In this document: piece after piece, positions 666-53,384 of the stretch
Layout of the letters: every line of letters begins with the position of its first letter
Numbering within the stretch: position 1 is the first letter of the stretch
Origin: an uncultured Bacteroidales bacterium
GTDB taxonomy: Bacteria > Bacteroidota > Bacteroidia > Bacteroidales > WCHB1-69
Reading direction: 5' to 3'
NCBI GenBank assembly: GCA_900316305.1
Contig: ONCM01000012.1
Location: forward strand, 1-58,782
DNA: 58,782 bases
The notes under the pieces: generated by a model
What the model was told of the DNA's origin: nothing
The model's input: only the letters and a program-made list of their open reading frames with translations
Databases searched by the model: none
Translations under genes and position numbers: made by a program

Positions 666-707
666 AGTTTCAGGTTTCAGGTTTCAGGTTTCAGGTTTCA
701 GGTTTCA
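666..707. repeat. Heptamer array, unit GGTTTCA x6
   Basis: Six tandem 7-mers (AGTTTCA then five GGTTTCA) with no spacer. The last unit contains the stop codon of the FISUMP gene (705-707). Confidence 0.95.
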
Positions 708-3700
708 GTTCTTCACGCAGCGGACGGAGAAGGCCGTTTCCTTATCTTCTTTATAAGAACTTACCATTTCTTGTGAAAACGACAAATAATAAACCCAAGC
801 TTTGTTATCTTCAGGTGTGGAAGTCCAGAAATTAGCGCTTTGTCCATAACCATCGAATGTGGTTTTCCAATAGCCTGCCGGGAAAGCGGAGAAGCCGGTG
901 GTATTTGTCTTTGCAATATTTCCCCTGTCGCTGCCCACCGCGCAATACTTTTCTTCGTGAGCCCAAGCATAAATAGTTTCCTCGCTTTGGTTTGTAAAAT
1001 GATGGGTACCAGCCAATGCCTTGGCAATAAAGGTGGGTTCTTCATCGTCACACCAGTAACCACTTTGTCTGCCCATATAGGTGATCAGTTGATCCCACTC
1101 CGCTTGAGTCGGCACATGCCAGCCTGCGGGACAGAGCATGCCCCCTTCCACCGCATACCAGTTGTAGTACATACCGTAGATGGAGTCCGTGAAGTGCTCG
1201 GCCACGGCAGGACGATACAGCGAGGCTGTTGCCGACGACGCATCTTGATTCTCGGGAATCGCGTCACCGTTGCGGAACTTGGTAGTGCGCAGATTGGTCT
1301 TAGTCCAACACTGATCGCCGATCATCACCGTCTCGTAGCGGTTGTCGTCGACATCGATTATCTTGGAGGTACCGCAGGAGAACGCCTGGGGACCAGTCAC
1401 CGGCTCATCCCTCAAACAGCGGACCGAACGACCATATTTCAAGGCATCATACGCAAGGGCCACCACATCATACGTGACAAATCCAAGACGGAAGAAATAT
1501 CCCGTGGAATCTGAACCTGGTTGCGTGGAAGAAGACCAGAAGTGGGCATCTTTACCCGGATCAAATTCGCGTCCACCCAAACCCGTAACGGTATCTATGT
1601 TACCGCCAAGATTATCGTACCAAGCGCCAGCTGGGATGGCGGAGAAATAGGTGGCGTCGTTAAGATAGTCCGGATCCTGATATTGCGGGCTGCAGGGTCT
1701 GGGAACGGGATCATTATTAATAGTATATGTTACGGGGGGCGTTTCAACATTAAACCAGAAATTCCGGGAAGCTACTGCCTTGGCCAAATTAGAATTGTCG
1801 TTGTCGCACCAATATTCGGGATGCACTTTCAGATAACCTATGAGATCTTTCCAATCGTTCGTATCCGGCACATGCCAGCCCTCGGGACAGAGGTTGTCAC
1901 CAATGGTGGCATATCCGTTGTAGTAGAAACCAAAGATGGAGTCCGGAACGGTAGCCAGTTTTACAATGCTGTCGGTGCTTTTATCTGTAGCGCTCAACCG
2001 ATAGTATGCAGGCTCCGTTGTCCCAATCTGATTAGAAATAGTACTGCCGTCACGATATTTCGTAGTGCGCAGGTTGGTCTTGGCCCAGCATTGGCTACCA
2101 ACCACGACCGTCTGGTAAAGATTGCCATCAGTGTCGGTCATGTTGCCGCAGGAGACTTCCGGATGGTTGGGGGTGGTGAAGGAGAGCTCCTCGCCATAGA
2201 CGGTCCTGTTGTCGTATTTGATGAACGCCTTATATTCGTATTTGGTGTTTGGTATAATGCCGTTGAACGTATAGGTCAACGCCGTGTCGTCACCAGAGAG
2301 TCTCACGGTGTATTCGTACCCTCCGTGGCTCTTCTTCCATACAAACCCTTGCTCCGTTATTTCCACATGGTTGGGATTGTGGACCGTTCCGTAAACCTTG
2401 GCCGACGTCAGCGTGATGTCTGTTACGCTATCTGTCGTGACGGAAGCGATAGGCGTGGTGAATGTTTTCCAACTACCGTATGAGGTTTTGTAACCGTACT
2501 TAATATAAGCTTTGTAGCGGTAACTGGTGTTTGGCAGAAGATTCGTAAGAGTAGCGGTCAATTCCGCACCTTCAACAACCATTTCGAATTCTTGGTCATC
2601 TGTGTTTTTCTTCCACACAAAGCCCATCTGCGTTATGGACACATCGTCAGGATTGGTGACAGTGCCATTGAGTTTGGCTGAATTGAAGGTGACATTTGTG
2701 GCGTAATCGGTTTTAACGGTAGGATCCTCTAAAATATGATACTCAATGTCCTTGACGCAGCGAACAGACAGGAGATAGTCCTTTGGATTCGTATAATTTT
2801 GCAAATCAGCCAAATATTTTGAAACAACATAGTATTTGGCGAAATTATCTTCTGAGGGCATTGCCGTCCAAAAATAGGCAACAATACTGTCCCATATCGG
2901 GGAATGTTTACCATAGAGAAGATAACCGGCAGGAACAGCGGAAAAACCAGAGGTATTATTATTCTCCGGATTTTTGCCTACTGAGCAGTCATCAGTATTA
3001 GGATACCATAACAAGCTATCCGCCAACGTTTTGGCAATATAGGTCGGATTAGATCCACAGTAATCGTAAGTTCCCAGATAGTTCTTGAGCATCGTCCAAT
3101 CATTTTCGTTAGAAACATGCCAACCCTCAGGACAAAGCTTGCTGTCACCCGTATCAGCGGCAGCATACCAGTTGTAGTAAAAGCCAAATGTGGAGTCTGG
3201 AAAAGTCTGGGTGTAGTCAGGAGAAATGCGGGAGAAGGAAGCGGACGAGAATTGGTCGGGATCGACATCCTCCGGAATCATTTTGCCGTTGCGGAACTTG
3301 GTAGTACGCAGGTTGGTCTTGGTCCAGCACAGCTCGCCGATCTGCACGGTCTCATATTTGTTGCCGCTGGAATCAATCATCTTGGAAGTGCCGCAAGTGA
3401 AGATTTCGGGTTCGGGTTGTGGTTGAGGCTGCGGTTGAGGTTGCGGCTGCGGTTCAGTATCCACAGGAAGCTCGCCGCCGTCTTTGACGCAGCGCACACT
3501 CGCACTGATATTCCCGAAATCCTGTACGCGGACAATCTCGTTGCAGTAGTACATCATCTTGTACATGGCGGGCTGGGGTACGCCGCCCGTTGTATCGATA
3601 GCCCAGAGATAACCTTCCGTGAGCATATTCTCGAAACGACCGGTCGTGCCGTTGCGCAAACCCGAAGCGTCCCAAGAGAAGCCCGTGCCATTGCCGCCAC

Positions 3701-4109
3701 CGTTGATCCAGCCGGTATTGTTGCGCAATTCCGCTGCCGCATAGTGGGATTTCACATAATCGAACAGCGTTGTCGTGGGCAGACTCCAGCCTTCAGGACA
3801 GAGACCCTGCATAGCAGCCGTCTCGTCGTAGAGTCGTCCGTAGGCAGCCACATTTCCGGCCTCATCTGGAAACTGCGAACTCTGGTAAGCATACACGTTG
3901 CCGGAGGTTACGACCGAGGTCGCCGTCAGGTTCTTGCTCATCCAGCAGTGACCGGCAAACGTCACGACCGGATACGAGATATTGTCGCCATCAGACACGG
4001 TTTCGTCGCAAACCGGAGTGTTCCCGGCATTTCCTTGCGCCTGCACATCCAAAATGTTAAAAACTGATGCACAGGCAATTAAAAAAGCAATAATATAAGA
4101 TTTTCTCAT
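705..4109 (-). CDS. Exported four-domain FISUMP surface protein
   Basis: A 1134-residue protein starting with a signal peptide (MRKSYIIAFLIACASVFN..VQAQ). An in-frame ATG 63 bases further upstream would put residues before the signal peptide, so 4109 is preferred. It carries four Fibrobacter succinogenes major paralogous (FISUMP) domains: about residues 35-212, 232-458, 653-903 and 905-1134. Each has a CW.K.NL motif near its start, a LCPEGWHVP-like motif, and ends in SVRC(V/L)K or RD. A Pro-Gln linker (about 213-231) separates the first two. Between the second and third are two fibronectin-type-III-like repeats with NT.Y.YKA.IKY. No T9SS tail is visible. The family is found on cell surfaces of Bacteroidota and Fibrobacteres; its function is unknown. 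It is divergent from the lipoprotein gene at 4441. Confidence 0.85.
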   Translation of the reverse strand: MRKSYIIAFLIACASVFNILDVQAQGNAGNTPVCDETVSDGDNISYPVVTFAGHCWMSKNLTATSVVTSGNVYAYQSSQFPDEAGNVAAYGRLYDETAAMQGLCPEGWSLPTTTLFDYVKSHYAAAELRNNTGWINGGGNGTGFSWDASGLRNGTTGRFENMLTEGYLWAIDTTGGVPQPAMYKMMYYCNEIVRVQDFGNISASVRCVKDGGELPVDTEPQPQPQPQPQPQPEPEIFTCGTSKMIDSSGNKYETVQIGELCWTKTNLRTTKFRNGKMIPEDVDPDQFSSASFSRISPDYTQTFPDSTFGFYYNWYAAADTGDSKLCPEGWHVSNENDWTMLKNYLGTYDYCGSNPTYIAKTLADSLLWYPNTDDCSVGKNPENNNTSGFSAVPAGYLLYGKHSPIWDSIVAYFWTAMPSEDNFAKYYVVSKYLADLQNYTNPKDYLLSVRCVKDIEYHILEDPTVKTDYATNVTFNSAKLNGTVTNPDDVSITQMGFVWKKNTDDQEFEMVVEGAELTATLTNLLPNTSYRYKAYIKYGYKTSYGSWKTFTTPIASVTTDSVTDITLTSAKVYGTVHNPNHVEITEQGFVWKKSHGGYEYTVRLSGDDTALTYTFNGIIPNTKYEYKAFIKYDNRTVYGEELSFTTPNHPEVSCGNMTDTDGNLYQTVVVGSQCWAKTNLRTTKYRDGSTISNQIGTTEPAYYRLSATDKSTDSIVKLATVPDSIFGFYYNGYATIGDNLCPEGWHVPDTNDWKDLIGYLKVHPEYWCDNDNSNLAKAVASRNFWFNVETPPVTYTINNDPVPRPCSPQYQDPDYLNDATYFSAIPAGAWYDNLGGNIDTVTGLGGREFDPGKDAHFWSSSTQPGSDSTGYFFRLGFVTYDVVALAYDALKYGRSVRCLRDEPVTGPQAFSCGTSKIIDVDDNRYETVMIGDQCWTKTNLRTTKFRNGDAIPENQDASSATASLYRPAVAEHFTDSIYGMYYNWYAVEGGMLCPAGWHVPTQAEWDQLITYMGRQSGYWCDDEEPTFIAKALAGTHHFTNQSEETIYAWAHEEKYCAVGSDRGNIAKTNTTGFSAFPAGYWKTTFDGYGQSANFWTSTPEDNKAWVYYLSFSQEMVSSYKEDKETAFSVRCVKN

Positions 4110-7421: not shown

Positions 7422-9044
7422 ATGAAAGACTTAAGAGCAGAATTGCAAGCCCTGGGCGTGGAAAACCCCGTTGAGATTTACCACAATTTGTCTTACGACG
7501 AACTGTATAAACATGAGACCAACCCCGCACTGACGGGCTATGAGAAGGCCTACCTGACCAAGTCGGGCGCCCTTTCGGTCGATACCGGTATCTTCACCGG
7601 CCGCTCGCCCAAAGACAAATACATTGTGAAGGACGAGAACACGAAGGACAACGTGTGGTGGTACGACCCCAACAAGAAGGGCTCCGACAACAAGCCCATT
7701 GACCACAAGACCTGGGAGCATTTCCGCGTGCTCTGCCAGAAGCAGCTTTCCGGCAAGAAGGTGTATGTGATGGACGGCTACTGCGGCGCCAACGAGAACT
7801 CCCGCATGAAGGTGCGCTTCGTGTCGGAGGTAGCTTGGCAAGCCCACTTCGTGAAGAACATGTTCATCCGTCCCTCTGAAGAGGAACTCGCCGACTTCGA
7901 GCCCGACTTCGTGGTGCTGAACGCCGGCAAGACCACCAACCCCGACTGGAAGGAGATGGGGCTGAACAGCGAGGTCTTCGTGGCCTTCAACCTGACGGAG
8001 CGCATGGCCCTCATCGGCGGCACCTGGTACGGCGGCGAGATGAAGAAGGGTATCTTCTCCGTGATGAACTACTTCCTGCCGCTTAACGGTATGGCCGCCA
8101 TGCACTGCTCGGCCAACGAAGGCAAGAACGGCGACACCGCCATCTTCTTCGGCCTCTCCGGCACCGGCAAGACGACCCTCTCCACCGACCCGAACCGCGC
8201 CCTCATCGGCGACGACGAGCACGGCTGGGACGACAACGGCGTCTTCAACTTCGAGGGTGGCTGCTATGCAAAATGTATCAACCTCAGTGAGGAGAAAGAA
8301 CCCGACATCTTCCACGCCATCAAGCGTGACGCTTTGTTGGAGAACCTTGTGGTGGATGCCGAAGGCAACATCGATTTCAACTCCGCCGAGAAAACCGAGA
8401 ACACGCGTGTCTCCTACCCCATCTACCATATTAATAATATAGTACGTCCGATTTCCCGCGGCACCCATCCGAGCAAGATCATCTTCCTCTCCGCCGACGC
8501 TTTCGGTGTGCTGCCTCCTGTTTCCATCCTCAACAAGGAGCAGACCATGTACTATTACTTAAGCGGTTATACAGCCAAACTGGCTGGCACCGAGCGTGGC
8601 ATCGTGACCCCGCAGCCGACCTTCTCCTCCTGCTTCGGCGCAGCTTTCCTGTTGCTGCACCCCACGAAATATGCTGAGGAGTTAGCTAAGAAGCTCGAAG
8701 AGCACAACGCAACGGCTTACCTGGTGAACACCGGCTGGGCTGGTGGCGGTTACGGCGTCGGTGAGCGCATCTCCCTGAAGGCCACCCGTGCCATCATCAC
8801 GGCCATTCTCAACGACGAGCTCAAGAGCTGCGAAACCGAGATCGTGAAACCCTTCAACTTGGTGATTCCCAAGCACGTCACCGGCGTGGATGACAACATC
8901 CTGAATCCCGAGAACAGCTGGGCAGACAAAGCCGCCTTCAAGAAGAACGCCGACGAGCTGGCCGCAGCCTTCATCAAGAACTTCGCCAACTTCAGCGACA
9001 CCGAGCAAGGCAAGGCATTGATCCCGTTCGGCCCGCAAATCTAA
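7422..9044 (+). CDS. pckA: Phosphoenolpyruvate carboxykinase (ATP)
   Basis: A 540-residue protein, the usual length for ATP-dependent PEP carboxykinase (EC 4.1.1.49), a cytoplasmic enzyme interconverting oxaloacetate + ATP and PEP + CO2 + ADP. Visible are the P-loop [11 protein letters not shown] (about residue 244), the metal/nucleotide segment [20 protein letters not shown] (about 265-285), and [11 protein letters not shown] near the N-terminus. In fermentative Bacteroidales it often works in the CO2-fixing direction towards succinate or propionate; that is an inference. It is read from the TATCTTTG box at 7378. Its stop codon is the first triplet of a heptamer array that runs to the pepE start. 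Confidence 0.97.
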
Positions 9045-9076
9045 ACCTTAAACCCTAAACCTTAAACCTTAAACTC
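9042..9076. repeat. Heptamer array, unit TAAACCT x5
   Basis: Five 7-mers. The first begins with the TAA stop of pckA and the last ends one base before the ATG of pepE. Confidence 0.95.
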
Positions 9077-9077
9077 T

Positions 9078-9836
9078 ATGAAACTATTACTGATAAGCAA
9101 TTCAACCAACTACAAAGAGCCCTACCTGGGCTGGTGCCAGCCGCTGATCGCAGAATTCCTGCAGGGCACGGCTGACGAAATCCTGTTCGTCCCTTACGCT
9201 GGCGTGGATGTAGGCGGCAAGGTCTATCCCGAAAGCTACGACAGCTACACGGCCCGCGTGCGCGGCGTGTTTGAGAAGTTCGGCAAGAAGGTGGTCTCCG
9301 TGCACGAGGTCAGCGACCCCGTGGCGGCGGTCAACAACGCCAAGTTCATCATGGTGGGCGGCGGCAACACCTTCCATCTGGTGGCCGAGCTGCACCGCAA
9401 CAAGCTCATCAAGCCCATCCGCCGCAAGGTGATGGAGGGCACACCCTACATGGGCTGGAGCGCAGGTTCCAATGTGGCTTGCCCGACGCTCTGCACTACT
9501 AACGACATGCCCATCGTGATGCCCGAGAGCTTTGATTGTTTCGACCTCGTGCCGTTCCAGATCAACCCGCACTACATCGACCCGTACCCGGAAGCTATTA
9601 ATGACAGCATCCGTCACGGCGGCGAGACTCGTCAGGTGCGTCTGAACGAATATCTGGCGGTGAACAAGGAGAAGACCGTCGTCGGTCTGCGCGAAGGAAC
9701 CGCCCTCTGGATCGAGAACGAGCGCATCACCCTCAAGGGCACGCGCAACATGATTGTCCTCCGTTACGGCAAAGAGCCCGAAGAGATCGTTCCCGGCACC
9801 GTCTTCGGTTACGACATCGTGCCATGCCACGTGTAA
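9078..9836 (+). CDS. pepE: Dipeptidase E (peptidase S51, alpha-aspartyl dipeptidase)
   Basis: A 252-residue cytoplasmic serine peptidase that hydrolyses Asp-X dipeptides. The N-terminus SNSTNYKEPYLGW is typical of the family. The nucleophile elbow GWSAGS gives Ser128; the segment FQINPHYIDPY carries the His of the triad. The glycine-rich GGGNTFHL loop (about residues 94-101) forms the oxyanion region. The protein is slightly longer than the E. coli enzyme (229 residues). It lies 33 bases after pckA with only a heptamer array between, and is followed by a strong terminator. Confidence 0.93.
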   Translation: MKLLLISNSTNYKEPYLGWCQPLIAEFLQGTADEILFVPYAGVDVGGKVYPESYDSYTARVRGVFEKFGKKVVSVHEVSDPVAAVNNAKFIMVGGGNTFHLVAELHRNKLIKPIRRKVMEGTPYMGWSAGSNVACPTLCTTNDMPIVMPESFDCFDLVPFQINPHYIDPYPEAINDSIRHGGETRQVRLNEYLAVNKEKTVVGLREGTALWIENERITLKGTRNMIVLRYGKEPEEIVPGTVFGYDIVPCHV

Positions 9837-10377: not shown

Positions 10378-10460
10378 CTTACCTTAATTTTATGTGAAAA
10401 CAGCGTATAGGACGGTTTTATTGTCTTATAGTTTAATTTTTTAGGAAAGGTAAATTTTGT

Positions 10461-10516
10461 TGTTTCAAGTTTCAAGTTTCAGGTTGACAATTGCCTTTTG
10501 CCTATTGCCTGTTGCC
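10461..10516. repeat. Composite heptamer array, AGTTTCA then TATTGCC, 8 units
   Basis: Eight uninterrupted 7-mers: three of the AGTTTCA type, one hybrid, four of the TATTGCC type. It occupies part of the 257-base divergent gap 10378-10634 and ends just before the promoter of the M16 gene; an ATTG inside it is 19 bases upstream of the -7 box. Confidence 0.93.
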
Positions 10517-10526
10517 TAAAAAATAC

Positions 10527-17269: not shown

Positions 17270-17785
17270 ATGACCCAAGAATTCCCCATATTTGACCGTA
17301 CCGAACGGCTGATCTCCATCAATCCCGACGCGGAAATCACCGCCCTGTCGCAGGTCTATACAGCTGAAACCGCCGACAACTTCCATCTGGAGGACTACGA
17401 TGTCGTGATTGACGCCATCGACAGTCTCACCCCGAAGGCACACCTCATCCTGCACGCCTCCCGACTGCCCGTCACGCTGCTCTCGTCCATGGGTTCCGCC
17501 CTCAAGCTCGACCCCACCAAGATCAAAGTCGCCGAGTTCTGGAAGGTTCAGTACTGTCCGCTGGCCCGCGCCCTGCGCAAGAAGTTCAAGCACTGGCAGA
17601 AATTCCCCGAACGGAAATTCCTGTGCGTCTATTCCCCGGAAGTACTGGACAATCTGAGCGAAAGCGCCGTGGAGGATACCACACCGGACGAATTCCACAA
17701 GGTGCAGGTAAACGGTACGGTGGCGCATGTAACGGCGATATTTGGGTTTATGCTGGCGGGACTGGCGATACAATGTAGAATGTAG
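17270..17785 (+). CDS. TcdA/ThiF-family protein lacking the N-terminal nucleotide-binding half
   Basis: A 171-residue protein. From RLISINPDAEITAL onward it aligns by eye with the tRNA threonylcarbamoyladenosine dehydratase (TcdA) family: YDVVIDAIDSLTPK, LLSSMGSALKLDPTKIKVAEFWKV, CPLARALRKKFK, and a hydrophobic C-terminus VTAIFGFMLAGLAI. Intact members have about 85-95 more residues at the N-terminus with the GxGGVG ATP-binding loop, DxD and the NRQ region. These are absent, and the preceding gene ends only 15 bases upstream, so they are not hidden in another frame. It is probably a remnant without adenylating activity, though the frame is open. The stop codon lies in a heptamer array. Confidence 0.75.
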   Translation: MTQEFPIFDRTERLISINPDAEITALSQVYTAETADNFHLEDYDVVIDAIDSLTPKAHLILHASRLPVTLLSSMGSALKLDPTKIKVAEFWKVQYCPLARALRKKFKHWQKFPERKFLCVYSPEVLDNLSESAVEDTTPDEFHKVQVNGTVAHVTAIFGFMLAGLAIQCRM

Positions 17786-17806
17786 AATGCAGAATTATGA
17801 ATAGAA
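17772..17806. repeat. Heptamer array, unit AATGTAG x5 (degenerate)
   Basis: AATGTAG, AATGTAG, AATGCAG, AATTATG, AATAGAA. It includes the stop of the TcdA-like gene (17783-17785) and the ATG of the M1 gene (17797). Confidence 0.85.
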
Positions 17807-21703: not shown

Positions 21704-21707
21704 AACT

Positions 21708-21735
21708 TTGGCTATTGGCTGTTGGCTATTGCCTT
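21708..21735. repeat. Heptamer array, unit TTGGCTA x4
   Basis: TTGGCTA, TTGGCTG, TTGGCTA, TTGCCTT, starting four bases from the cstA ATG, within its 5' leader. Confidence 0.88.
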
Positions 21736-35354: not shown

Positions 35355-35389
35355 AACTACTAATTTCTAACTACTAACTGCTAACTCAT
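35355..35389. repeat. Heptamer array, unit AACTACT x5
   Basis: AACTACT, AATTTCT, AACTACT, AACTGCT, AACTCAT. It covers the stop codon and last codons of the gene ending at 35381. Confidence 0.85.
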
Positions 35390-37611: not shown

Positions 37612-37616
37612 TATTT

Positions 37617-37669
37617 CAATTATGAATTATGAATTATGAATTAATGAATAATTAATGATGAATAATTAA
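37617..37669. repeat. Heptamer array, unit GAATTAT x4 plus AT-rich tail
   Basis: CAATTAT, GAATTAT, GAATTAT, GAATTAA, followed by a duplicated TGAATAATTAA-like tail. It starts six bases upstream of the nfeD start. Confidence 0.85.
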
Positions 37670-39015: not shown

Positions 39016-39026
39016 CTTTTTTTAAA

Positions 39027-39068
39027 GGTTATTGGTTATAGGTTATGGGTTATTGATTTTGGGTTACG
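39027..39068. repeat. Heptamer array, unit GGTTATT x6
   Basis: GGTTATT, GGTTATA, GGTTATG, GGTTATT, GATTTTG, GGTTACG, just upstream of the tyrS start. Confidence 0.88.
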
Positions 39069-39090
39069 TGGGGATGTAACGCATAAGTTC

Positions 39091-39125
39091 ATTCTACATT
39101 CTACATTCTTCATTCTACATTCTTC
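39091..39125. repeat. Heptamer array, unit ATTCTAC x5
   Basis: ATTCTAC, ATTCTAC, ATTCTTC, ATTCTAC, ATTCTTC, ending four bases before the stop of the lipoprotein gene at 39130. Confidence 0.9.
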
Positions 39126-39129
39126 ATTG

Positions 39130-39522
39130 TTACGGCAAAACGAGGGTGACTTTCCACTCATCATTTTCCTTAAGAAGATCCCAATGGTCTTCGCGGGGCA
39201 CGTCGTTGAGGGTGACTTTGGTAGTGCAGGAGGCAGTGGAGTCGGTCAGATTATTCACTGTGGTACTTACGAACACTACCTTGTTATTTTTAAGTTCTTC
39301 CAGTTTCTCCTGCTGATCCTTCATGGCATTCTGCATGGTTTTTACCGCCGCCTGGGACTTTTTGGTGGTATATTCATACATGTGGGGGAAGTCAGCCGTA
39401 TAAAAAGCCTTCGCAAATGATTCAGTGACTGCTTCCGGAGTGTTTTTCTTCTTGTTGTTCTGGCAGGAGAGCCCTAACATACAAACACCCGCCAATAAAA
39501 GAATCCAAATTCTACGTTTCAT
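39130..39522 (-). CDS. Small lipoprotein, DUF4878-like
   Basis: A 130-residue protein. The start at 39522 gives a lipoprotein signal peptide MKRRIWILLLAGVCMLGLSC followed by QNNKKKN. The mature part looks like a DUF4878/NTF2-like fold: PEAVTESFAKAFYTADFPHMYEYTT, then strands ending TTKVTLNDVPREDHWDLLKENDEWKV. Function unknown. A TATCTTTG box lies 28 bases upstream. Confidence 0.75.
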   Translation of the reverse strand: MKRRIWILLLAGVCMLGLSCQNNKKKNTPEAVTESFAKAFYTADFPHMYEYTTKKSQAAVKTMQNAMKDQQEKLEELKNNKVVFVSTTVNNLTDSTASCTTKVTLNDVPREDHWDLLKENDEWKVTLVLP

Positions 39523-39592: not shown

Positions 39593-39627
39593 CTTTGACC
39601 GTTGACCATTGGCCATTGACTGTTGAC
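39593..39627. repeat. Heptamer array, unit CATTGAC x5
   Basis: CTTTGAC, CGTTGAC, CATTGGC, CATTGAC, TGTTGAC. Its last base is the first base of the ettA stop codon region (39627-39629). Confidence 0.88.
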
Positions 39628-41306: not shown

Positions 41307-41309
41307 TTT

Positions 41310-41358
41310 GGTTTAAGGTTTAAAGTTTAAGGTTTAACGGTTAAAGGTTAGAAGTTAA
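41310..41358. repeat. Heptamer array, unit GGTTTAA x7
   Basis: Seven units grading from GGTTTAA to AAGTTAA, beginning three bases upstream of the ettA ATG. Confidence 0.93.
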
Positions 41359-41367
41359 AATGAGGTG

Positions 41368-41384: not shown

Positions 41385-41468
41385 ACCATTGACCATTGAC
41401 TGTTGACCATTTTATTCATCATTCATAATTCATCATTCATAATTCTACATTCTTCATTCTTCATTAAA
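41385..41468. repeat. Composite heptamer array of 12 units
   Basis: Twelve uninterrupted 7-mers that change from ACCATTG type to CATTCAT/AATTCAT type to CATTCTT type. It fills the space between the divergent ettA and pepD promoters. Confidence 0.93.
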
Positions 41469-43095: not shown

Positions 43096-43123
43096 CAGCC
43101 AAAGGCCAATAGCCAATAGCCAA
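43096..43123. repeat. Heptamer array, unit TAGCCAA x4
   Basis: CAGCCAA, AGGCCAA, TAGCCAA, TAGCCAA, ending six bases before the -7 box of the rhamnosidase gene. Confidence 0.9.
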
Positions 43124-43129
43124 ATTTTG

Positions 43130-43156: not shown

Positions 43157-45961
43157 ATGAGAAAATTGATCCTTTTTGTCATTATCCTTACCGCATTTTC
43201 GGGCAGCAGCATTTTCGGGCAGGTCTCTATTTCGCATGCGACCGTCGAGTATCAGGACGGGTCGCAGCCGTTGGTCACCAATGTGCCGCGGTTCAGCTGG
43301 CGCTACGAGACGGACGATTCTATCAATCGATGGGTCATTCCGACTAACGTGAAACAGACCTCCTACCGCATCATTGTGGCCTCCACCCGCGAAAATGCCG
43401 AAAAGAACATCGGCGACCTTTGGGACACCAAGACCATTGCCTCCAACCGGATGCTGCTCATCCCCTACGAAGGCAAACCGCTACACAGCCGCGACAAGGC
43501 CTATTGGAAAGTCATCACCTCTACAACCCGCTATGAAATCACGGAAGTAACACACACGACATACTCCAGAGTGAACGAATATAAATCTTTAGATACCGTA
43601 ACCCGCGTCAGATTCATCGAGAGCGACATCAACACTTTCGAAATCAGCCTCTTGGATAGCACCGATTGGAAAGCCAAATGGATTGGCGGCGACTTCTACA
43701 ACGACGACATTCATGGAAATACCCGCATCGCGTCGCGCCACCTACGCAAAGAATTTTCCCTGACCAAAAACATCCGCGAAGCGAGGCTCTATGTCAGCGG
43801 ATTAGGACAATACAGTGCCTACCTCAACGGCAAAGAGGTCGCGCCCGAAGAGATTCTCAAACCCGCCCTTTCCCACTACACCAAGCGGGTCTATTTCAAC
43901 GCCTACGATGTCACCGACATGCTCCAAAAGGGCAATAATGCTGTCGGGATCATACTGGCGGGAGGCCGCTACACCACCGTCCGCTACGACACGACCGAGA
44001 TGGAATGGGGCGGACTGACGCATGCCATGCACTACGGCACCCCACGACTGCTACTGCAACTGGAGGTGACCTACACAGACGGTTCCAAAGAACTGATTGT
44101 CAGTGACAAAAGTTGGAAAATCACCGACAAGGGACCCATCTGCAAAAGCAACGAGTTCGACGGGGAGACTTACAACGATCGGTACAATCTCGGCAACTGG
44201 ACATCCACGGGTTACAACGACAAATCTTGGTACCCCGCCAGAGTGGTGGAAGCGCCTGGAGGCAAACTCGTGCCACAGCCCAACCCCAACATCAAAGTGC
44301 AGGATACGCTACGACCGATGGCAATGTTTCGTAAGGGCGATGCCTGGATTTTGGATATGGGACAAAACATGGTGGGTTATTTGCAATTACAGATGCGGAA
44401 CTTACATCCAGGAGATACGGTGACGTTACGCTTCGCCGAGCTCCTCAAACCCGACAGCACTCTCTACATCGATAATTTGCGTAGTGCAGAGGCCACCGAT
44501 AGGTATATTGTTTCGTATGTAGAGACGTTTCATGAAACGTCTCTACGACAATGGCATCCGATGTTCACCTACCACGGGTTCCGTTACGTGGAGATTACCG
44601 GTCTACGCGGAAAACCGAATATCAGTGATTTCCAAGGACTTGTGTTCTACGATGAGATGGCCACCACCGGCAGCTTCGAATGTTCCAACGAGATCATGAA
44701 TGCCGTCTATCGCAACGCCTACTGGGGCATTCGGAGCAACTACCGCTCGATGCCCACCGACTGTCCGCAACGCGACGAACGGATGGGTTGGACTGGCGAT
44801 CGCACCACGGGAACCTATGGCGAATCGTACATCTTCAACAACTATCGGCTCTACGAAAAATGGCTCTACGACGGCGAGGACAGCCAGTGGGAGAACGGTT
44901 CCCTGTCGGATGTCTGGCCTCCCTATTGGCGGCGCTACACCGACAACATGACCTGGCCGGGCGCGTTCATCACCGTGGCCGATATGCTCTACACCCGCTA
45001 CGGCGACCTCGAAATCATCCGCAAACACTACCCCGCCATGAAAAAGTGGATGTTGCACATGAAAGGAACATACGGTCAAGACGGTGTCATCACCCGCGAC
45101 TGTTACGGCGACTGGTGCGTGCCACCGGAGTCGCTGGAGCTAATCCACTCCAATGACCCGCGCCGCCACACCGAAGGGGGATCCATCTCCACCCCGTTCT
45201 ACTGCCACCTTTGCGACCTGATGGCAAAATTTGCCGATCTTCTGGAGCTACCCGACGACGCAGCCTACTTCCGTTTCGACAAACGGTTCACCGCCAACAG
45301 CTACCACGACCAATTCTTCGACTACGCCACCGCCTCCTACGACAACGGCAGCGTGACGGCCAACCTGCTGCCGCTCACATTCGGCATGGTGCCGGAAGAG
45401 TGGGATTCTATCGTCTTCAGCAACATCATCAACAAGACCGAAAAGGAGTTCGACGGGCACGTTTCTACCGGTGTGGTGGGCATACAACAGTTGATGCGCA
45501 CGCTCACGGAACGCGGGCGCAGCGACTTAGCGCTGAAAATTGCCACCAATGACACCTACCCGAGTTGGGGCTACATGGTGCGCAACGGCGCGACCACCAT
45601 CTGGGAGCTCTGGAACGGCAACACCGGCGACCCCGCGATGAACTCCGGCAACCATGTCATGCTCCTCGGCGACCTCATCCTCTGGGAATACGAATACCTC
45701 GGCGGCATCCGCGCCTTGGAACCGGGCTACAGCAAAATCCAGCTAAAGCCCTATTTCATTGAAGGATTGGAATTTGTAAACTGCAGCTACGAGTCCGTTT
45801 CCGGCCGCATCGTAAGCCAATGGACCCGTCACGGAAACCTACTGGAATGGAACTTCCAAATCCCCGCCAACACCACAGCAGAAGTATGGGTTCCGACCGC
45901 AAACGGTTACGAAATAAAGACTTACGGAAGCGGTTTACACGTAGTACGAATCAAAGAGTAG
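43157..45961 (+). CDS. Exported alpha-L-rhamnosidase (GH78)
   Basis: A 934-residue protein; ATG 43157 is preferred over the GTG two codons earlier and opens a signal peptide (MRKLILFVIILTAFSG..IFGQ). Bacterial rhamnosidase N-terminal beta domains (SRHLRKEFSL, ARLYVSGLGQYSAYLNGK) are followed by FTYHGFRYVEITG, the GH78 hallmark MPTDCPQRDERMGWTGD (about residues 531-547), and an (alpha/alpha)6 catalytic domain with GDWCVPP and WELWNGNTGDPAMNSGNH. It removes terminal rhamnose from glycans or glycosides. Codons 455-464 are a 28-bp intergenic-type palindrome that adds about six residues compared with the usual spacing before W-x-P-x-FTYHGF. Confidence 0.92.
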   Translation: MRKLILFVIILTAFSGSSIFGQVSISHATVEYQDGSQPLVTNVPRFSWRYETDDSINRWVIPTNVKQTSYRIIVASTRENAEKNIGDLWDTKTIASNRMLLIPYEGKPLHSRDKAYWKVITSTTRYEITEVTHTTYSRVNEYKSLDTVTRVRFIESDINTFEISLLDSTDWKAKWIGGDFYNDDIHGNTRIASRHLRKEFSLTKNIREARLYVSGLGQYSAYLNGKEVAPEEILKPALSHYTKRVYFNAYDVTDMLQKGNNAVGIILAGGRYTTVRYDTTEMEWGGLTHAMHYGTPRLLLQLEVTYTDGSKELIVSDKSWKITDKGPICKSNEFDGETYNDRYNLGNWTSTGYNDKSWYPARVVEAPGGKLVPQPNPNIKVQDTLRPMAMFRKGDAWILDMGQNMVGYLQLQMRNLHPGDTVTLRFAELLKPDSTLYIDNLRSAEATDRYIVSYVETFHETSLRQWHPMFTYHGFRYVEITGLRGKPNISDFQGLVFYDEMATTGSFECSNEIMNAVYRNAYWGIRSNYRSMPTDCPQRDERMGWTGDRTTGTYGESYIFNNYRLYEKWLYDGEDSQWENGSLSDVWPPYWRRYTDNMTWPGAFITVADMLYTRYGDLEIIRKHYPAMKKWMLHMKGTYGQDGVITRDCYGDWCVPPESLELIHSNDPRRHTEGGSISTPFYCHLCDLMAKFADLLELPDDAAYFRFDKRFTANSYHDQFFDYATASYDNGSVTANLLPLTFGMVPEEWDSIVFSNIINKTEKEFDGHVSTGVVGIQQLMRTLTERGRSDLALKIATNDTYPSWGYMVRNGATTIWELWNGNTGDPAMNSGNHVMLLGDLILWEYEYLGGIRALEPGYSKIQLKPYFIEGLEFVNCSYESVSGRIVSQWTRHGNLLEWNFQIPANTTAEVWVPTANGYEIKTYGSGLHVVRIKE
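44519..44546. repeat. 28-bp palindrome inside the rhamnosidase coding sequence
   Basis: Identical in all 28 bases to the intergenic copy at 4195. It begins exactly at a codon boundary and encodes VETFHETSL plus the first base of Arg464. Confidence 0.97.
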
Positions 45962-45995
45962 GCTATTGACTATTGACCATTGACTGTTAACCATT
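45961..45995. repeat. Heptamer array, unit GACTATT x5, bridging two convergent genes
   Basis: GGCTATT, GACTATT, GACCATT, GACTGTT, AACCATT. It runs from the last base of the rhamnosidase stop into the stop codon of the convergent Na/Pi gene, filling the whole 32-base gap. Confidence 0.92.
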
Positions 45996-48172: not shown

Positions 48173-48227
48173 TTGAGCATATCGAAACTTTTGAGAGAAT
48201 CGTACGTTTTGAGCTTATTTCGTTAAT

Positions 48228-48255
48228 AATGTACAATGTACAATGAACAATGTAC
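48228..48255. repeat. Heptamer array, unit AATGTAC x4
   Basis: AATGTAC, AATGTAC, AATGAAC, AATGTAC. It is inverted relative to the array at 48295, so the two can pair across a 39-base loop. Confidence 0.9.
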
Positions 48256-48294
48256 ATTGTGATCATCGCAGTTTGGCTGCATTCACCGTGTCAT

Positions 48295-48329
48295 CATTGT
48301 ACATTATACATTGTACATTGTTCATTGTT
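48295..48329. repeat. Heptamer array, unit CATTGTA x5 (inverted partner)
   Basis: CATTGTA, CATTATA, CATTGTA, CATTGTT, CATTGTT. The last units contain the glnS stop codon (48322-48324). Confidence 0.9.
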
Positions 48330-49953
48330 TCAGGCTCACCGTCTTATTGAACACCAACTTCTCCTCGCTCGAATCCGGATCGCAGTAGAAATAGCCGATG
48401 CGTTCGAACTGGAAGTGCTTGATGGTGGAGGCTTTCTCGTAGGTGAGACCCTCTTCCACCCAAGCTTGCTTGATTTCCAGGGAGTTGGGATTCAAGTTGT
48501 CGAGGAAGGTCTGGCCCTCTTCACAGTTGTCGGGATCGGGCACACTGAAGAGGCGGTCGAAGAGGCGCACCTCAGCGGCTTTGGAGTGCTTCACGGGCAC
48601 CCAGTGAATGGTCGCCTTCACCTTGCGGTTGCTGTCGGGCATACCGCTCTTGGTCAACGGATCGTAGGTGCAGTGAATTTCGGTGATCTCGCCGTTCTCG
48701 TCCTTGACAATATGCGTGCACTTGATGATGTAGGCGTATTTCAGACGCACCTCGCGGTCGATGGAGAGGCGATAGAATTTCTTGTCGGCATTCTCGCGGA
48801 AGTCGGCGCGCTCGATCCACAACTCCTTGGCAAACGGGATCTTACGGGTTCCTGCGCTCTCGTCTTCGGGGTTGTTGACAGCATCCATCATCTCGACCTG
48901 ATCCTCAGGATAGTTGTCGATGATGAGCTTCACCGGGTCGAGGACGGCCATCGTGCGGATGGCGGTCTTGTTAAGATCCTCGCGGGCGCAGAACTCTAAC
49001 AGGGAAACGTCAATGATGTTGTCGCGCTTGGCCACACCAACGGTCTCGGCGAAATTACGGATGGCGGCCGGCGTATAACCTCTACGGCGCAAACCACAGA
49101 TGGTAGGCATGCGCGGGTCGTCCCAACCTCTAACATAGTTTTCCTTAACGAGTTGCAGCAATTTGCGCTTACTCATGATGGTGTAGTTGAGATTCAGACG
49201 TGCAAACTCGATTTGCTGCGGGTGATGGATGTGCAACGCCTCGCAGAACCAGTCGTAGAGCGGACGGTGCACCTCGAACTCTAACGTGCAGATGGAGTGC
49301 GTGATGCCCTCGATGGAGTCGCTCTGTCCGTGCGCGAAGTCGTACATCGGGTAGATGCACCACTTGTTGCCGGTGCGGTGGTGTTCGGCGTGCAGGATGC
49401 GGTACATGATGGGGTCGCGGAAGTGCATGTTGGGCGATGCCATGTCGATTTTGGCGCGAAGCACGCGGCTGCCGTCCGGGAACTCACCCGCCTTCATGCG
49501 ACGGAACAGGTCGAGGTTCTCCTCCACGCTGCGGTTGCGGTACGGACTCTCCGTGCCGGGTGCAGTAGGCACTCCCCTACCCTTGCTGATCTCCTCCTGC
49601 GTCTGGTCATCGACATACGCGAGACCGTCCTGAATGAGCTGCTCGGCCCACAGGTAGAGCTGGTCGAAGTAGTCGGAAGCGTAGTATTCCGCCGCCCATT
49701 GGAAGCCCAGCCACTTGATGTCCTCGCGGATGGAGTCCACATATTCGGTGTCTTCCTTCACGGGATTCGTGTCGTCAAAGCGGAGGTTGGTCTTTCCGCC
49801 ATATTTCTGAGCAACACCGAAGTTCAAACAGATGGACTTGGCGTGGCCGATATGCAAGTAACCGTTCGGCTCTGGTGGGAATCTTGTTTGTACTCTGCCA
49901 TCGTTCTTCCGGTTTTGAATGTCTTCTTCGATAATTTGCTCAATGAAATTCAT
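48322..49953 (-). CDS. glnS: Glutaminyl-tRNA synthetase
   Basis: A 543-residue class I synthetase (EC 6.1.1.18), close to the 554 residues of E. coli GlnRS. The HIGH motif is in [21 protein letters not shown] (about residues 25-45), KMSKS is [11 protein letters not shown] (about 260), and [19 protein letters not shown] is the GlnRS-specific segment following HIGH. Presence of glnS implies direct Gln-tRNA charging. A TATCTTTG box lies 37 bases upstream. Confidence 0.96.
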
Positions 49954-50025: not shown

Positions 50026-50053
50026 AGTTTAAGGTTGAGGGTTTAAGGTTTAA
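50026..50053. repeat. Heptamer array, unit GGTTTAA x4
   Basis: AGTTTAA, GGTTGAG, GGTTTAA, GGTTTAA, between the divergent glnS and kamD genes; same unit family as 41310. Confidence 0.88.
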
Positions 50054-50090
50054 TGGAACACTTGTCGTAACATTCTCGTATGCCAAAAAC

Positions 50091-50111
50091 CATAAACCTT
50101 AAACTATAAAC
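50091..50111. repeat. Heptamer array, unit CTTAAAC x3 (inverted)
   Basis: CATAAAC, CTTAAAC, TATAAAC: the reverse-complement orientation of the array at 50026. Confidence 0.75.
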
Positions 50112-50180: not shown

Positions 50181-51740
50181 ATGACAGAAAAATCGAAACT
50201 CGGACTGGATTTTACGAAGGTGGCTGCCGCGAAGCAGCTAGCGAAACAGATTGCAGACCAGGTTCAGGAGTTTGTGGACGGTTACACCACTGTGACCGTG
50301 GAGCGTACCCTTTGCCGTCTGATCGGTATTGACGATGTGGACGAGAACGGCGTGCCGCTTCCCAACCGTGTGGTGGACGCCCTCTTGGAGGCCGGCGTGC
50401 TGAGTCAGGGCGTGCTCTACTTCATGGGCAACGCCATCTTGGAAACGGGCGCCAACCCGCAGGAGATTGCGGAGCGCATCTCCCGCAACGAGCTGAACGT
50501 CACCTCCCTGCCCCTGCATCCGCTGCCGGAAATCCAAAAGGCAATTCAGCCCTACATTGAGCAGTGCCTCACCCGCATCAAGGGTAATGTGGCCAAACGT
50601 AACGAATATCTGAACACCATCGGCGAGGGTCCGAAACCGTACCTCTACATCATCGTCGCCACGGGCAACATCTATGAAGATGTCGTCCAAGCGCAGGCTG
50701 GTGCCCGCCAGGGTGCGGACGTCATCGCCGTGATCCGTACCACCGGACAAAGCCTCTTGGACTATGTGCCTTACGGCGCGACCACCGAGGGCTTCGGCGG
50801 CACCTTCGCCACCCAAGAGAACTTCCGCATCATGCGTAAGGCTCTGGACGAGGTCGGAGAGGAACAAGGCCGTTACATCCGCTTATGTAACTACTGTTCA
50901 GGACTTTGTATGCCGGAAATCGCGGCTATGGGTGCTCTGGAGCGTCTCGACGTGATGTTGAACGACGCCCTCTACGGCATCCTCTTTCGCGACATCAACC
51001 CGCAGCGTACGCTCATCGACCAGTATTTCTCCCGTATCATCAACGGCTATGCCGGCGTCATCATCAACACCGGTGAGGACAACTACCTGACCACCGCCGA
51101 CGCCGTGGAGGCCGCCCACACCGTGCTCGCCTCCGACCTCATCAACGAGCAGCTGGCATTGTTGGCCGCTCTTCCTGAGGAGCAAATGGGCTTGGGTCAC
51201 GCTTTCGAAATGGACCCGATGTTGGAAAACGGCTTCCTGTTGGAGCTCGCACAGGCGCAGATGACCCGCGAAATTTTCCCGAAAGCCACGCTGAAGTACA
51301 TGCCGCCGACCAAATTCATGACCGGCAACATCTTCCGCGGCCACATCCAGGATGCGCTTTTCAACATTATCGGTATCTGGACGCACCAAGGCATCCAACT
51401 GCTGGGTATGCCCACCGAGGCCATCCACACGCCGTTCATGAGCGACCGTTACCTCTCCATCGAGAACGCCCGCTACATCTTCAACGACATGCGCAGCATT
51501 GGTGAGGAGATGGAATTCCGCGAAGGCGGCATCTGCCGTGAGCGCGCCAAGACCGTCCTCAACAACGCCATCGAATTGCTGCAGGAGATCGTCAACGAAG
51601 GTCTCTTCACCGCTTTGGAGAAGGGTATCTTCGGCGACGTGAAGCGTCCGAAGGACGGTGGCAAGGGTCTCGCCGGCGTGGTCACCAAAGGCGAAAATTA
51701 CTTCAACCCATTTATTAAGATGATGAAAGAAAGATGGTAA
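50181..51740 (+). CDS. kamD: D-lysine 5,6-aminomutase alpha subunit
   Basis: A 519-residue protein, the usual length of the alpha (KamD) subunit of adenosylcobalamin- and PLP-dependent lysine 5,6-aminomutase (EC 5.4.3.3), which moves the terminal amino group of D-lysine or beta-lysine in lysine fermentation to acetate and butyrate. Recognisable stretches are YTTVTVERTLCRLIGID, GVLYFMGNAILETG, VIRTTGQSLLDYVPYGATTEG and LGMPTEAIHTPFMSDR. The alpha subunit forms the TIM barrel holding substrate and part of the cofactor sites. kamE lies downstream after one intervening gene. Its stop codon opens a heptamer array. Other pathway genes (kamA, kdd, kce, kal) are not in the window. Confidence 0.95.
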   Translation: MTEKSKLGLDFTKVAAAKQLAKQIADQVQEFVDGYTTVTVERTLCRLIGIDDVDENGVPLPNRVVDALLEAGVLSQGVLYFMGNAILETGANPQEIAERISRNELNVTSLPLHPLPEIQKAIQPYIEQCLTRIKGNVAKRNEYLNTIGEGPKPYLYIIVATGNIYEDVVQAQAGARQGADVIAVIRTTGQSLLDYVPYGATTEGFGGTFATQENFRIMRKALDEVGEEQGRYIRLCNYCSGLCMPEIAAMGALERLDVMLNDALYGILFRDINPQRTLIDQYFSRIINGYAGVIINTGEDNYLTTADAVEAAHTVLASDLINEQLALLAALPEEQMGLGHAFEMDPMLENGFLLELAQAQMTREIFPKATLKYMPPTKFMTGNIFRGHIQDALFNIIGIWTHQGIQLLGMPTEAIHTPFMSDRYLSIENARYIFNDMRSIGEEMEFREGGICRERAKTVLNNAIELLQEIVNEGLFTALEKGIFGDVKRPKDGGKGLAGVVTKGENYFNPFIKMMKERW

Positions 51741-51779
51741 TTCATAATTCAGAATTATGAATTATGAATTATGAATATT
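51738..51779. repeat. Heptamer array, TAATTCA/GAATTAT, 6 units
   Basis: TAATTCA twice, GAATTAT three times, GAATATT. The first unit begins with the TAA stop of kamD. It is directly followed by the 74-bp element. Confidence 0.92.
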
Positions 51780-51785
51780 AATTAT

Positions 51786-51859
51786 GAATAATTCCTTGAG
51801 CAGTCTCGAAGAGACAAGATTTTAATAACCCCACACAAGGCGATAGCCGCAGTGTGGGG
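51786..51859 (+). repeat. 74-bp two-hairpin element, copy 1
   Basis: Hairpin 1 is GTCTC-GAA-GAGAC (within CTTG...CAAG); after the spacer ATTTTAATAA, hairpin 2 is CCCCACAC/GTGTGGGG enclosing GGC-GATA-GCC. It ends 21 bases before the ATG at 51881. A second copy is at 52450. Confidence 0.93.
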
Positions 51860-51880: not shown

Positions 51881-52420
51881 ATGGACATAGACAATCTCCC
51901 AGTTGGAACAAGAGTAAGCCACGAGAAATACGGCGAAGGCGTCGTCAGTCAGAACAACGCGCTGACCTACAAGATCATTTTCGTGCGCGGCGGTGAAATG
52001 GAGTTTTCCAAGTCCGCTGTGGCGCTGGATGTGCTTGAAGAGAACGACGTTGAGGACGACACCCCGAAGCTCAACATCCGCGAGTTCAAGCAGGTGCTGA
52101 CGCAAATCCTGACCCAGTACAACGGCATCGAACACAAGGTCGAGCTGGGCAAGAAATGGCAAGGCGGCACCATGATTCTGCAGCCCGCCAACAAGGATTT
52201 AGCCCCCAAGGAGATCCCCGTGGAGACCTTCTTCCACAAGATCGTCATGATGCGCGACCGTCTGCGCGTGCTCGAACAGAACATCAACAGCAGCAACTCG
52301 CTCACCGACGAGGAGAAAGTCAACCTCCAGCAGTACATCTCCCGCATCTACGGCAGCATGACCTCGTTTAACGTGCTGTTTGAGAACAAGGAGGACTACT
52401 TTGTGGGAGTTAGAAGTTAG
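51881..52420 (+). CDS. Conserved unknown protein between kamD and kamE
   Basis: A 179-residue protein starting MDIDNLPVGTRVSHEKYGEGVV; the ATG 27 bases earlier would extend into the hairpin element. The first about 55 residues resemble a small tudor/CarD-like beta barrel (GTRVSHEKYGEGVVS, YKIIFVRGGEMEF). The rest is helical (EIPVETFFHKIVMMRDRLRVLEQ, LTDEEKVNLQQYISRIYGSM) and, from memory, resembles a widespread Bacteroidales family of unknown function. It is flanked by two copies of a 74-bp element and by heptamer arrays, so its place in the kam operon may be secondary. I assign no function. Confidence 0.7.
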   Translation: MDIDNLPVGTRVSHEKYGEGVVSQNNALTYKIIFVRGGEMEFSKSAVALDVLEENDVEDDTPKLNIREFKQVLTQILTQYNGIEHKVELGKKWQGGTMILQPANKDLAPKEIPVETFFHKIVMMRDRLRVLEQNINSSNSLTDEEKVNLQQYISRIYGSMTSFNVLFENKEDYFVGVRS

Positions 52421-52434
52421 TAGTTAGCAGTTAG
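52407..52434. repeat. Heptamer array, unit TAGTTAG x4
   Basis: GAGTTAG, AAGTTAG, TAGTTAG, CAGTTAG. It includes the stop codon of the unknown gene (52418-52420). Confidence 0.9.
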
Positions 52435-52449
52435 CAGTTTTTTTCGAGA

Positions 52450-53353: not shown

Positions 53354-53356
53354 CGA

Positions 53357-53384
53357 TAGTTAGCAGTTAGTAGTTAGAAGTTAG
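53357..53384. repeat. Heptamer array, unit TAGTTAG x4
   Basis: TAGTTAG, CAGTTAG, TAGTTAG, AAGTTAG, then a partial unit, immediately after the kamE stop. Same unit family as 52407. The rest of the 315-base gap to 53669 holds a terminator, two -7 boxes and a possible tiny ORF. Confidence 0.9.

Follow-up and report, generated by a model that had tools for sequence, protein, structure and literature searches.

Why should the gaps between the genes of one bacterial genome be occupied, time and again, by tandem repeats of exactly seven bases? This question is raised by a 58,782-bp stretch of DNA from an uncultured Bacteroidales bacterium (contig ONCM01000012.1 of assembly GCA_900316305.1; hereafter, the window), in which short arrays of 7-bp units (heptamers) recur between genes. 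Heptamer arrays have been seen in several phyla and have no agreed mechanism, and the genus of the window, which comprises 40 genomes including the source genome, makes it testable whether a period of seven derives from a polymerase, from copying between sites, or from a seven-base reader in untranslated regions. We find that the arrays are dispersed intergenic heptanucleotide elements of the type called short tandemly repeated repetitive (STRR) sequences in the cyanobacteria Calothrix, Nostoc, and Microcystis, and that the presence of an array at a gene edge appears to outlast its sequence, such that related species carry different heptamers at the same site. Whole-array turnover matters for the prediction of promoters and terminators and for the comparison of intergenic regions between these genomes.

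Genome-Wide Excess of Heptamer Arrays

The source genome (G000; other G-codes denote congeners and L-codes fetched loci) was sampled over 858,782 bp, or 26% of the genome, comprising the window and 800 kb drawn from eight contigs as 40 segments of 20 kb each (nine contigs with that of the window). Tandem Repeats Finder (TRF) was applied to the window and a mismatch-tolerant array detector to all 858,782 bp. Genes were called with a home-made codon model, which placed some starts too far downstream. The host is probably a rumen species, based on the sample sources of relatives of an ABC-F protein encoded in the window: its closest relatives are from uncultured Bacteroidales genomes sampled from goat, sheep, yak, buffalo, and other ruminant gut, and also from horse faeces and lakes. 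Genome completeness, where it bears on the results below, is 97% for G000, 99% for G028, 94% for G033, 90% for G011, and 79% for G002.

A first-pass annotation, made from the letters of the window alone, had listed 21 arrays with a period of 7 bp, and TRF returned a period-7 row at all 21 of the listed starts. Further period-7 rows absent from that list adjoin listed arrays (10490, 41414, and 51752) or are weak (52525, 53559, and 56850). Array lengths had been given as 3 to 12 units; this does not hold for the window, where TRF copy numbers range from 2.1 to 7.4, but arrays with as many as 11 and 12 units do occur elsewhere in the genome. When exact self-matches running for 10 bp or more were counted in the window, there were 11 at period 7, 11 at its multiple, 14, and three or fewer at any other period up to 30.

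The larger sample contained 220 arrays of period 7, compared to 34 of period 11, 32 of period 12, 29 of period 10, 28 of period 8, 22 of period 6, 15 of period 9, 14 of period 13, eight of period 5, and two of period 4. Five dinucleotide shuffles of the same 858,782 bp yielded only one to three period-7 arrays each, and ten shuffles of the intergenic regions 60 bp or longer (408 in all) yielded 0–3 such arrays, versus 163 observed. Exact period-7 runs in the first 400 kb comprised 63 intergenic and seven coding cases, and a dinucleotide shuffle of these 400 kb had none; no other period up to 24 exceeded seven intergenic exact runs, except for period 14 (12 runs). The excess over shuffled sequence that would be expected of a genome-wide phenomenon is therefore present in the sampled 26%, and arrays of 5, 6, or 8 bp are not equally frequent. 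Period-7 arrays occupied 156 of the 482 intergenic regions of at least 30 bp, about a third of the sampled gaps, and extrapolation gives ~840 arrays per genome. Their placement between genes was also borne out: 216 of the 220 arrays lie outside called genes, many extending into the last bases of the upstream gene, and only four have the location inside a reading frame that is typical of phase variation.

Array Identity at Orthologous Gene Edges

The gap below the tyrosyl-tRNA synthetase gene illustrates how arrays differ between species. In the window, this gap holds an (ATTCATA)n array (37614..37663, minus strand) upstream of the reading frame 37141-37611(-). The corresponding gap holds units of the GGTTATN type in G036, of the GATTTGC type in G032, of the GGGTTAA type in G039, and GGAATTA in G026. 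Heptamers other than that of G000 were found there in at least seven congeners, and in four others the gap measures just 6–10 bp and has no array. When 46 syntenic gaps were compared with those of the closest relative, both genomes had an array in 13 (four of these with a unit distance of 0 or 1), the relative lacked the array in 15, the relative alone had one in three, and neither had one in 15.

Presence at a given site nonetheless tends to be retained. The closest ortholog had a stop array for 15 of the 44 genes with such an array in G000, versus 8 of the 115 genes without (Fisher, 5e-5). The sequence of the arrays is not retained in the same way: 23 of the 27 pairs with arrays at both orthologous stops differed at two or more unit positions, and the mean unit distance between orthologs (2.96) was no smaller than that between re-paired units (3.01; P = 0.44). 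This led us to reject in-place drift of units. The family of the array differed in 22 of 25 orthologous-stop entries (one entry per family per gene, 18 genes), with 11 of these 22 involving, on one or both sides, a unit outside the families named below; among the 14 entries with both sides in named families, 11 differed. These counts are based on 502 ortholog pairs from fetched loci, 203 of which fall on the 44 genes with a stop array, and the pairs are not independent because many of the loci were chosen near one locus. Unit number also varies between related genomes, as in the leader of the tyrosyl-tRNA synthetase gene. Gain, loss, and switching of units at orthologous gaps, which the first-pass annotation had raised as the comparison to make, were all seen between species.

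Units are concentrated within genomes. Two arrays drawn from one genome have the same canonical unit with a probability of 0.047–0.117, compared to 0.032 and 0.045 between G000 and its better-matching congeners (G028 and G006, respectively) and 0.0053 and 0 between G000 and the distant G012 and G026. Members of a family tend to have common end sequences, beyond which the DNA is unrelated. Collectively, because array presence outlasts sequence, units are common within a genome, and ends are common to unlinked loci, arrays appear to turn over by whole replacement and to be copied from site to site in the genome. The first-pass annotation had proposed a dedicated process that makes or spreads heptamers. 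That something does so follows from the period-specific excess, the gain, loss, and switching at the same sites, and the concentration of units within a genome; that it is a dedicated writer is unsupported, as discussed below.

The arrays are widespread in the genus, with at least one detected in 35 of 37 congeners in samples of up to 40 kb. First-look counts had hinted at two groups, yet given these 35 congeners an array-free clade was not established. Densities are 13–16 arrays per 100 kb in G012 and G026 versus 26–28 in G000 and G028. Some other Bacteroidales have heptamer arrays and a few have 8-bp or 11-bp arrays. The TAACTNC pattern, the most frequent in G000, occurs in 28 of 296 genomes of the phylum, G000 included (the reversed control pattern occurs in 16), and is therefore not special to the genus.

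Position and Strand Relative to Gene Edges

Arrays between tandem genes are not placed uniformly. Among 165 such arrays, 78 touched or overlapped the upstream stop codon; uniform placement would give 33.5, and the highest count in 1000 trials was 50. The end lay no more than 13 nt before the next start in 43 arrays (31.8 expected; highest trial, 49). Only 41 were more than 13 nt from both edges, versus 75 expected.

Strand, counted for arrays near one edge only, is set by the gene edge in the main families. TAACTNC reads GNAGTTA outward from the gene at 31 of 31 stops and 6 of 6 starts. The strand likewise follows the edge, at stops and starts respectively, in NAGCYAA (12/12 and 3/3), CATTCTN (8/8 and 1/1), TAACCNA (5/6 and 12/12), TAAACNN (2/2 and 2/2), and ATTCATN (7/8 and 4/6). 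For CATTGAC the outward reading is ATTGACC at 9 of 11 stops; for TGAAACY it is CTGAAAC at all five stops and the complement at the single start; and TACAATG is split 2 to 1. When orientation was instead scored by G+T content, the outward strand was G/T-rich at starts in 29/34 arrays of G000, 26/26 of G028, 2/2 of G012, 5/5 of G026, 2/3 of G006, 11/14 of other congeners, and 8/13 of other Bacteroidales. The values at stops were 68/97 (G000), 29/41 (G028), 11/20 (G012), 3/7 (G026), 5/9 (G006), 30/43 (other congeners), and 16/24 (other Bacteroidales). Taken together, the two sets of counts indicate that strand follows the edge firmly at starts and in the main families of G000, and weakly at stops elsewhere. 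A generic base skew was rejected as the cause of orientation at stops, given that array-free gaps have an outward G+T fraction of 0.47–0.50 after stops. Array-free gaps before starts have a mild skew (0.55–0.58 in the first 20 nt), and the strand rule at starts is thus partly generic. Same-family neighbours within one gap were inverted in 12 cases, versus 5.95 expected, and direct in none.

The stop triplet of a gene often lies within the repeat, as in AGT TAG CAGTTAG, CAT TGA CCATTGACC, and AAC TGA AACCTGAAAC (stop triplet set off by spaces). In G000, the triplet located 7 nt past the stop codon repeats it in 40 of the 110 genes that have a stop array, versus 13 of 548 without. The corresponding values are 32/117 versus 33/1047 for pooled congeners (0/8 in G006) and 10/24 versus 23/758 for other Bacteroidales. 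The same register is found in arrays of period 8 (4/9) and period 10 (3/7). It is partly geometric, since an array that overlaps a stop must preserve a stop there. TAG is the stop codon of 49 of the 110 array genes and 104 of the 548 others, and agreement of the stop codon with that of array-free orthologs is 0.43 for array genes (35 genes) versus 0.60 for the others (110 genes).

Unit Families and the TAACC Element

Families that recur at unlinked sites in both orientations, as first described for the window, persist in the larger sample, where about ten can be distinguished. Each has one or two variable positions, and all were defined from the same 216 arrays that they sort: TAACTNC (50 arrays), TAACCNA (26), NAGCYAA (24), CATTGAC (19), ATTCATN (19), TAAACNN (17), TGAAACY (17), CATTCTN (14), TACAATG (4), and AGGCAAN (2), with 24 arrays fitting none. 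The unit patterns are not palindromes, and none of the ten requires a G-tract of three or more, although some variants have one (TAACCCA, 14 of 75 TAACCNA units). In none of the eight families compared did neighbouring units resemble each other significantly more than shuffled units did, and those of TAACCNA were less alike (0.119 vs 0.262; P = 0.0015). Strings of variable bases common to different loci exceeded the shuffle for CATTGAC (22 vs 9.2) and for TAAACNN (27 vs 7.7, inflated by likeness within arrays).

The clearest defined element is TTCAA-(TAACCNA)3-TAACC-ATTA. TCAA borders TAACC arrays to the left in 21/27 cases in G000, 20/25 in G028, and 4/7 in G006, and ATTA borders them to the right in 13/27, 18/25, and 4/7, respectively; four units are present in 17/28, 22/28, and 4/7, and in 6/14 of those in other congeners. 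Start-facing copies end 6–14 nt before the called start in 14 of 20 cases. Where a gap holds both families, TAAACNN arrays precede TAACCNA arrays on the same strand (7/7). The copy in the window (39022..39066, minus strand) lies upstream of the tyrosyl-tRNA synthetase gene (PF00579), the start of which is probably at 39015 rather than at the called 38982: the coding stretch of this longer start is conserved in relatives and the element ends ~10 bases before it. At this gene, G006 and G021 retain the array with a different number and order of units, and G036 does not retain it.

Of 12 genes compared, just 3 have the element at their closest ortholog as well. The 20 genes behind TAACC elements have mixed functions and, by Pfam, include three aminoacyl-tRNA synthetases, of class II HGTP type (L072:18395-19903), leucyl (L076:13595-16432), and tyrosyl (window 37729-39015). 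Based on this mixture and the rarity with which the element is kept, we rejected the idea of a regulon.

Comparison With Known Heptamer Repeats

Heptamer arrays are known from other bacteria, and the new part is their swapping at fixed gene edges. Cyanobacterial STRR sequences and the long simple sequence repeats (SSRs) of Mrazek share with the arrays of G000 a period of 7, an intergenic location, and several families. For the arrays of G000, it is further shown that ends are conserved, that each family varies at one or two positions, that the gene edge determines the strand, and that units differ at orthologous edges. Indels between Cyanothece strains are mostly in 7-nt increments, according to the part of MacGregor (2015; PMC4679880) used here.

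The first-pass annotation knew of no description for Bacteroidales. This was incorrect: the same paper reports TAACTGA direct repeats in Beggiatoaceae, cyanobacteria, and five Bacteroidetes, including Paludibacter propionicigenes, a member of the Bacteroidales, and proposes that they are read by an RNA-binding protein, either ribosomal protein S1 or a cold-shock protein. In the sections cited, these repeats are likewise intergenic, lying mostly just upstream of starts and forward in the BOGUAY genome, with one Flexibacter set reversed after a stop (PMC4679880). They represent one heptamer, related ones being rare in BOGUAY (PMC4679880), compared to about ten families in G000. Orientation in the Microcystis sample is mixed (six forward, eight reverse; PMC4679880), and the edge rule is therefore not universal. 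No TAACTGA direct repeats occur in the 858 kb of G000, and four occur in 220 kb of the congener G012, this being the heptamer of marine Beggiatoaceae.

Further likeness is seen in the GGGAATC and GGGGAYT repeats described from Xanthomonas and Nostoc by Rehm (2015; PMC4692102). In the sections cited, these are dispersed and intergenic, prefer four units, read on the coding strand after stops and the non-coding strand before starts, and vary in length and sequence between related genomes. Inverted pairs number 70 and 75 in two Xanthomonas genomes (PMC4692102). These repeats form G-quadruplexes, whereas the patterns in G000 do not have a G-tract in every unit, and neither replacement by other families nor the stop-codon register is reported for them in those sections. 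Whole replacement has been described, again in the portion cited, for the P6b region of the Nostoc tRNA-Leu intron (Kaasalainen 2015; PMC4476775), where two 7-nt motifs occur and the region is replaced by that of the other class, as seems to happen to whole arrays in G000. That case involves one intron site and two classes, as opposed to hundreds of gene edges and many classes here. A literature search conducted mostly without subscription papers found, in the text covered, no account of genome-specific heptamer vocabularies that change at orthologous gene edges or of a stop codon as a repeat element.

Origin and Maintenance of the Arrays

The reading that we favour, to which we give roughly even chances, is that the arrays are STRR-type elements born by duplication, in some cases copied between sites, subject to fast turnover, and held to gene edges by purifying selection. 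New arrays would arise through 7-bp tandem duplication by polymerase slippage, and some may then be copied to other sites of the genome along a non-allelic route, for example by ectopic gene conversion, template switching, or a putative mobiliser. The arrays would turn over quickly. Purifying selection would remove them from coding sequence and keep those placements and registers that leave a stop codon at the end of the gene and an A/C-rich leader before the next start, and any effect on expression would be secondary.

Several points weigh against this reading. No copying agent was identified, and the shared variable-base strings expected from pasting are mixed, with TAACTNC below the shuffle (173 vs 257). 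What looks like replacement could also result from arrays being lost and regained independently in gaps prone to them. The lack of likeness between neighbouring units (0 of 8 families) argues against recent unit-by-unit slippage, while the frequent occurrence of four TAACC units and the uniform strand of TAACTNC at stops look like products of selection, not of neutral change; for the latter, a TAA stop is available on the other strand.

The last of these points bear on the idea that the arrays are selected elements of untranslated regions. Under this idea, A/C-rich leaders would be bound by S1 or a cold-shock protein, and heptamers after stops would insulate, terminate, or supply stops in all frames. 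The conserved ends and common four units of the TAACC element, its start-facing copies at 6–14 nt from called starts, the twofold excess of inverted same-family pairs, and a strand that is strict by edge in the main families although array-free gaps have no G/T skew after stops are all consistent with it. Because of the TAACC element and this strict choice of strand, selected function is a serious rival, even if an unlikely one. The element is seldom kept in orthologs, however, the genes behind it are of mixed function, and orientation by base composition is weaker at stops than the family counts. Backup stops in all frames were rejected as a weak effect, being barely commoner in the sense than in the antisense direction (84 vs 70 of 118 arrays). 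TAnnTTTG, a promoter-like motif, lies upstream of only 8 of 55 start-edge arrays (downstream of one, with no motif in the gap for 46), so the leaders are only putatively transcribed. Slippage at each site independently and without exchange, with the period of seven reflecting the polymerase footprint of Mrazek et al. 2007, would fit the report that, among long SSRs, heptanucleotides outnumber all other categories in most genomes (Mrazek 2007 as cited in PMC4679880); the footprint idea is restated in the cited parts of PMC4679880 and PMC4692102. It would also fit the altered unit number and order of the TAACC array retained at the tyrosyl-tRNA synthetase gene, and the TAACTNC matches in other Bacteroidota, which, among those listed, are mostly pure single-variant runs at one to few loci, as slippage gives. 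Slippage alone does not predict ends common to unlinked loci, the concentration of units within a genome, or the absence of neighbour likeness, and we regard it as unlikely.

Mechanisms that involve a dedicated agent fare worse than slippage, selection, or the favoured combination of duplication, copying, and purifying selection. Defined ends, a preferred unit number, and whole-array switching resemble templated synthesis by a heptamer writer akin to telomerase or to reverse-transcriptase defence systems. Matches to RVT_1 (PF00078) were absent from G000 and from the equally array-rich G028 and present at all in only 9 of 40 congeners, in a search that covered this family and no other reverse transcriptases or polymerases, and smaller sets of arrays with periods of 8, 10, 11, and 12 also exist. 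A reverse-transcriptase writer is unlikely, and is rejected as far as PF00078 goes; a template-directed writer of any kind seems highly improbable. Spread by a mobiliser of short elements, such as the tyrosine transposases associated with repetitive extragenic palindromic (REP) sequences (Y1_Tnp), is just as hard to credit. Y1_Tnp matches occur in 36 of 40 congeners, with four in G000, and G034, which has no match, also has no array in its 20-kb sample. Arrays are nonetheless found in the other three genomes without a match (two in 19.5 kb of G011, one in 14.3 kb of G033, and one in 4.6 kb of G002), although these three assemblies are incomplete, and G020 has matches yet no array in 20 kb. A broader notion, that a dedicated process still at work overwrites gene edges in species-specific heptamer arrays of defined start, unit number, and end, swapping old arrays for new, appears very doubtful; if true, each lineage would rewrite many of its untranslated regions in a heptamer vocabulary of its own. 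Growth of a G/T strand outward during extension of double-strand breaks was dropped, as this model does not predict an array at the edge that it points away from. Loss of mismatch repair was rejected as a cause, given that MutS_V was found in 6 of 6 genomes tested.

Arrays of the Window

The remaining arrays of the window, all located with TRF, lie mostly at stops, at starts, or in divergent regions. Six units of (CTGAAAC)n (665..712, minus strand) are at the stop of 705-4109(-), the stop codon TGA lying within the array, and (TAAACYN)n (9041..9078, plus) fills the gap from the stop of 7422-9044 to the start of 9078-9836. A divergent intergenic region contains (TTGAAAC)n (10460..10486, minus) and the adjoining (ATTGCCT)n (10490..10518, plus). 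The array (CATTCTN)n at 17768..17796 (minus) is over the stop of 17270-17785(+), and its sense unit GTAGAAT contains the stop codon TAG. At the start of 20279-21703(-) is (AGCCAAN)n (21707..21731, minus), a site at which G028 and G009 have related TTGGCTN units and further repeats and G003 has none. The (TAACTNC)n array at 35355..35387 (plus) provides the sense sequence AGT TAG CAGTTAG at the stop of 35381-36148(-).

Beyond the TAACC element, (CATTCTN)n (39087..39131, plus) is at the stop of 39130-39480(-). The ABC-F gene 39627-41306(-) has (TTGACCN)n at its stop (39593..39620, plus), where congeners have other units or none, and (TAAACCT)n (41309..41359, minus) ending a few bases before its start. 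The divergent region that follows holds (ATTGACC)n (41385..41411, plus) and a composite of ATTCATN then CATTCTN units (41412..41466, plus). Just upstream of a conserved TTTTGTATCTTTGCCGC stretch is (AGCCAAT)n (43097..43125, plus), where G036 has AGCCAAA units and G032 has TTTACGG-type units, and (ATTGACY)n (45961..45995, plus) begins at the stop of 43157-45961(+), between convergent genes. Two arrays of the CATTGTA family form an inverted pair, with a left arm at 48225..48260 (minus) and a right arm, (CATTGTA)n, at 48295..48330 (plus), at the stop of 48322-49953(-).

A further divergent region contains (TTAAACC)n (50027..50053, minus) and (CCATAAA)n (50083..50111, plus). An ATTCATA family array (51738..51789, minus) extends from the stop of 50181-51740(+); the orthologous stop has a TAACTNC array in L122 and none in G028 (L234). 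The last two arrays belong to the TAACTNC family: one (52406..52440, minus) has the sense sequence AGT TAG TAGTTAGCAG at the stop of 51881-52420(+), and the other (53357..53389, minus) is just past the stop of 52586-53353(+), where G028 (L234) has a TACAATG family array. An Rfam search of the window returned no family at the gathering score.

Other Repeats and Reading Frames

Repeats with other periods are also present. At 20099-20243 in the window, TRF identified an 11-bp array (AACGATGAATT) followed by an inverted 11-bp array (TTCATCGTCCA), and 11-bp stretches of the TTCATCG type occur in other gaps, the 34 period-11 arrays of the 858 kb being of any unit. Certain fetched loci are rich in 8-bp arrays (nine in L174 and five in L128) and others in 11-bp arrays (seven in L147 and eight in L148), suggesting that the preferred period may differ between lineages. 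Intergenic palindromes of type TAGAGACGCAAAATTTTGCGTCTCTA are located at 37690-37725 and 42998-43025 in the window and recur in the gaps of relatives; they are possibly REP-like, given the Y1_Tnp matches in the genome. Tandem repeats of 147 bp with a 441-bp superperiod were observed at 57591-58782, within a large reading frame that reaches the end of the contig. The largest reading frame in the list for the window, with 3022 codons, is at 26191-35259 on the minus strand.

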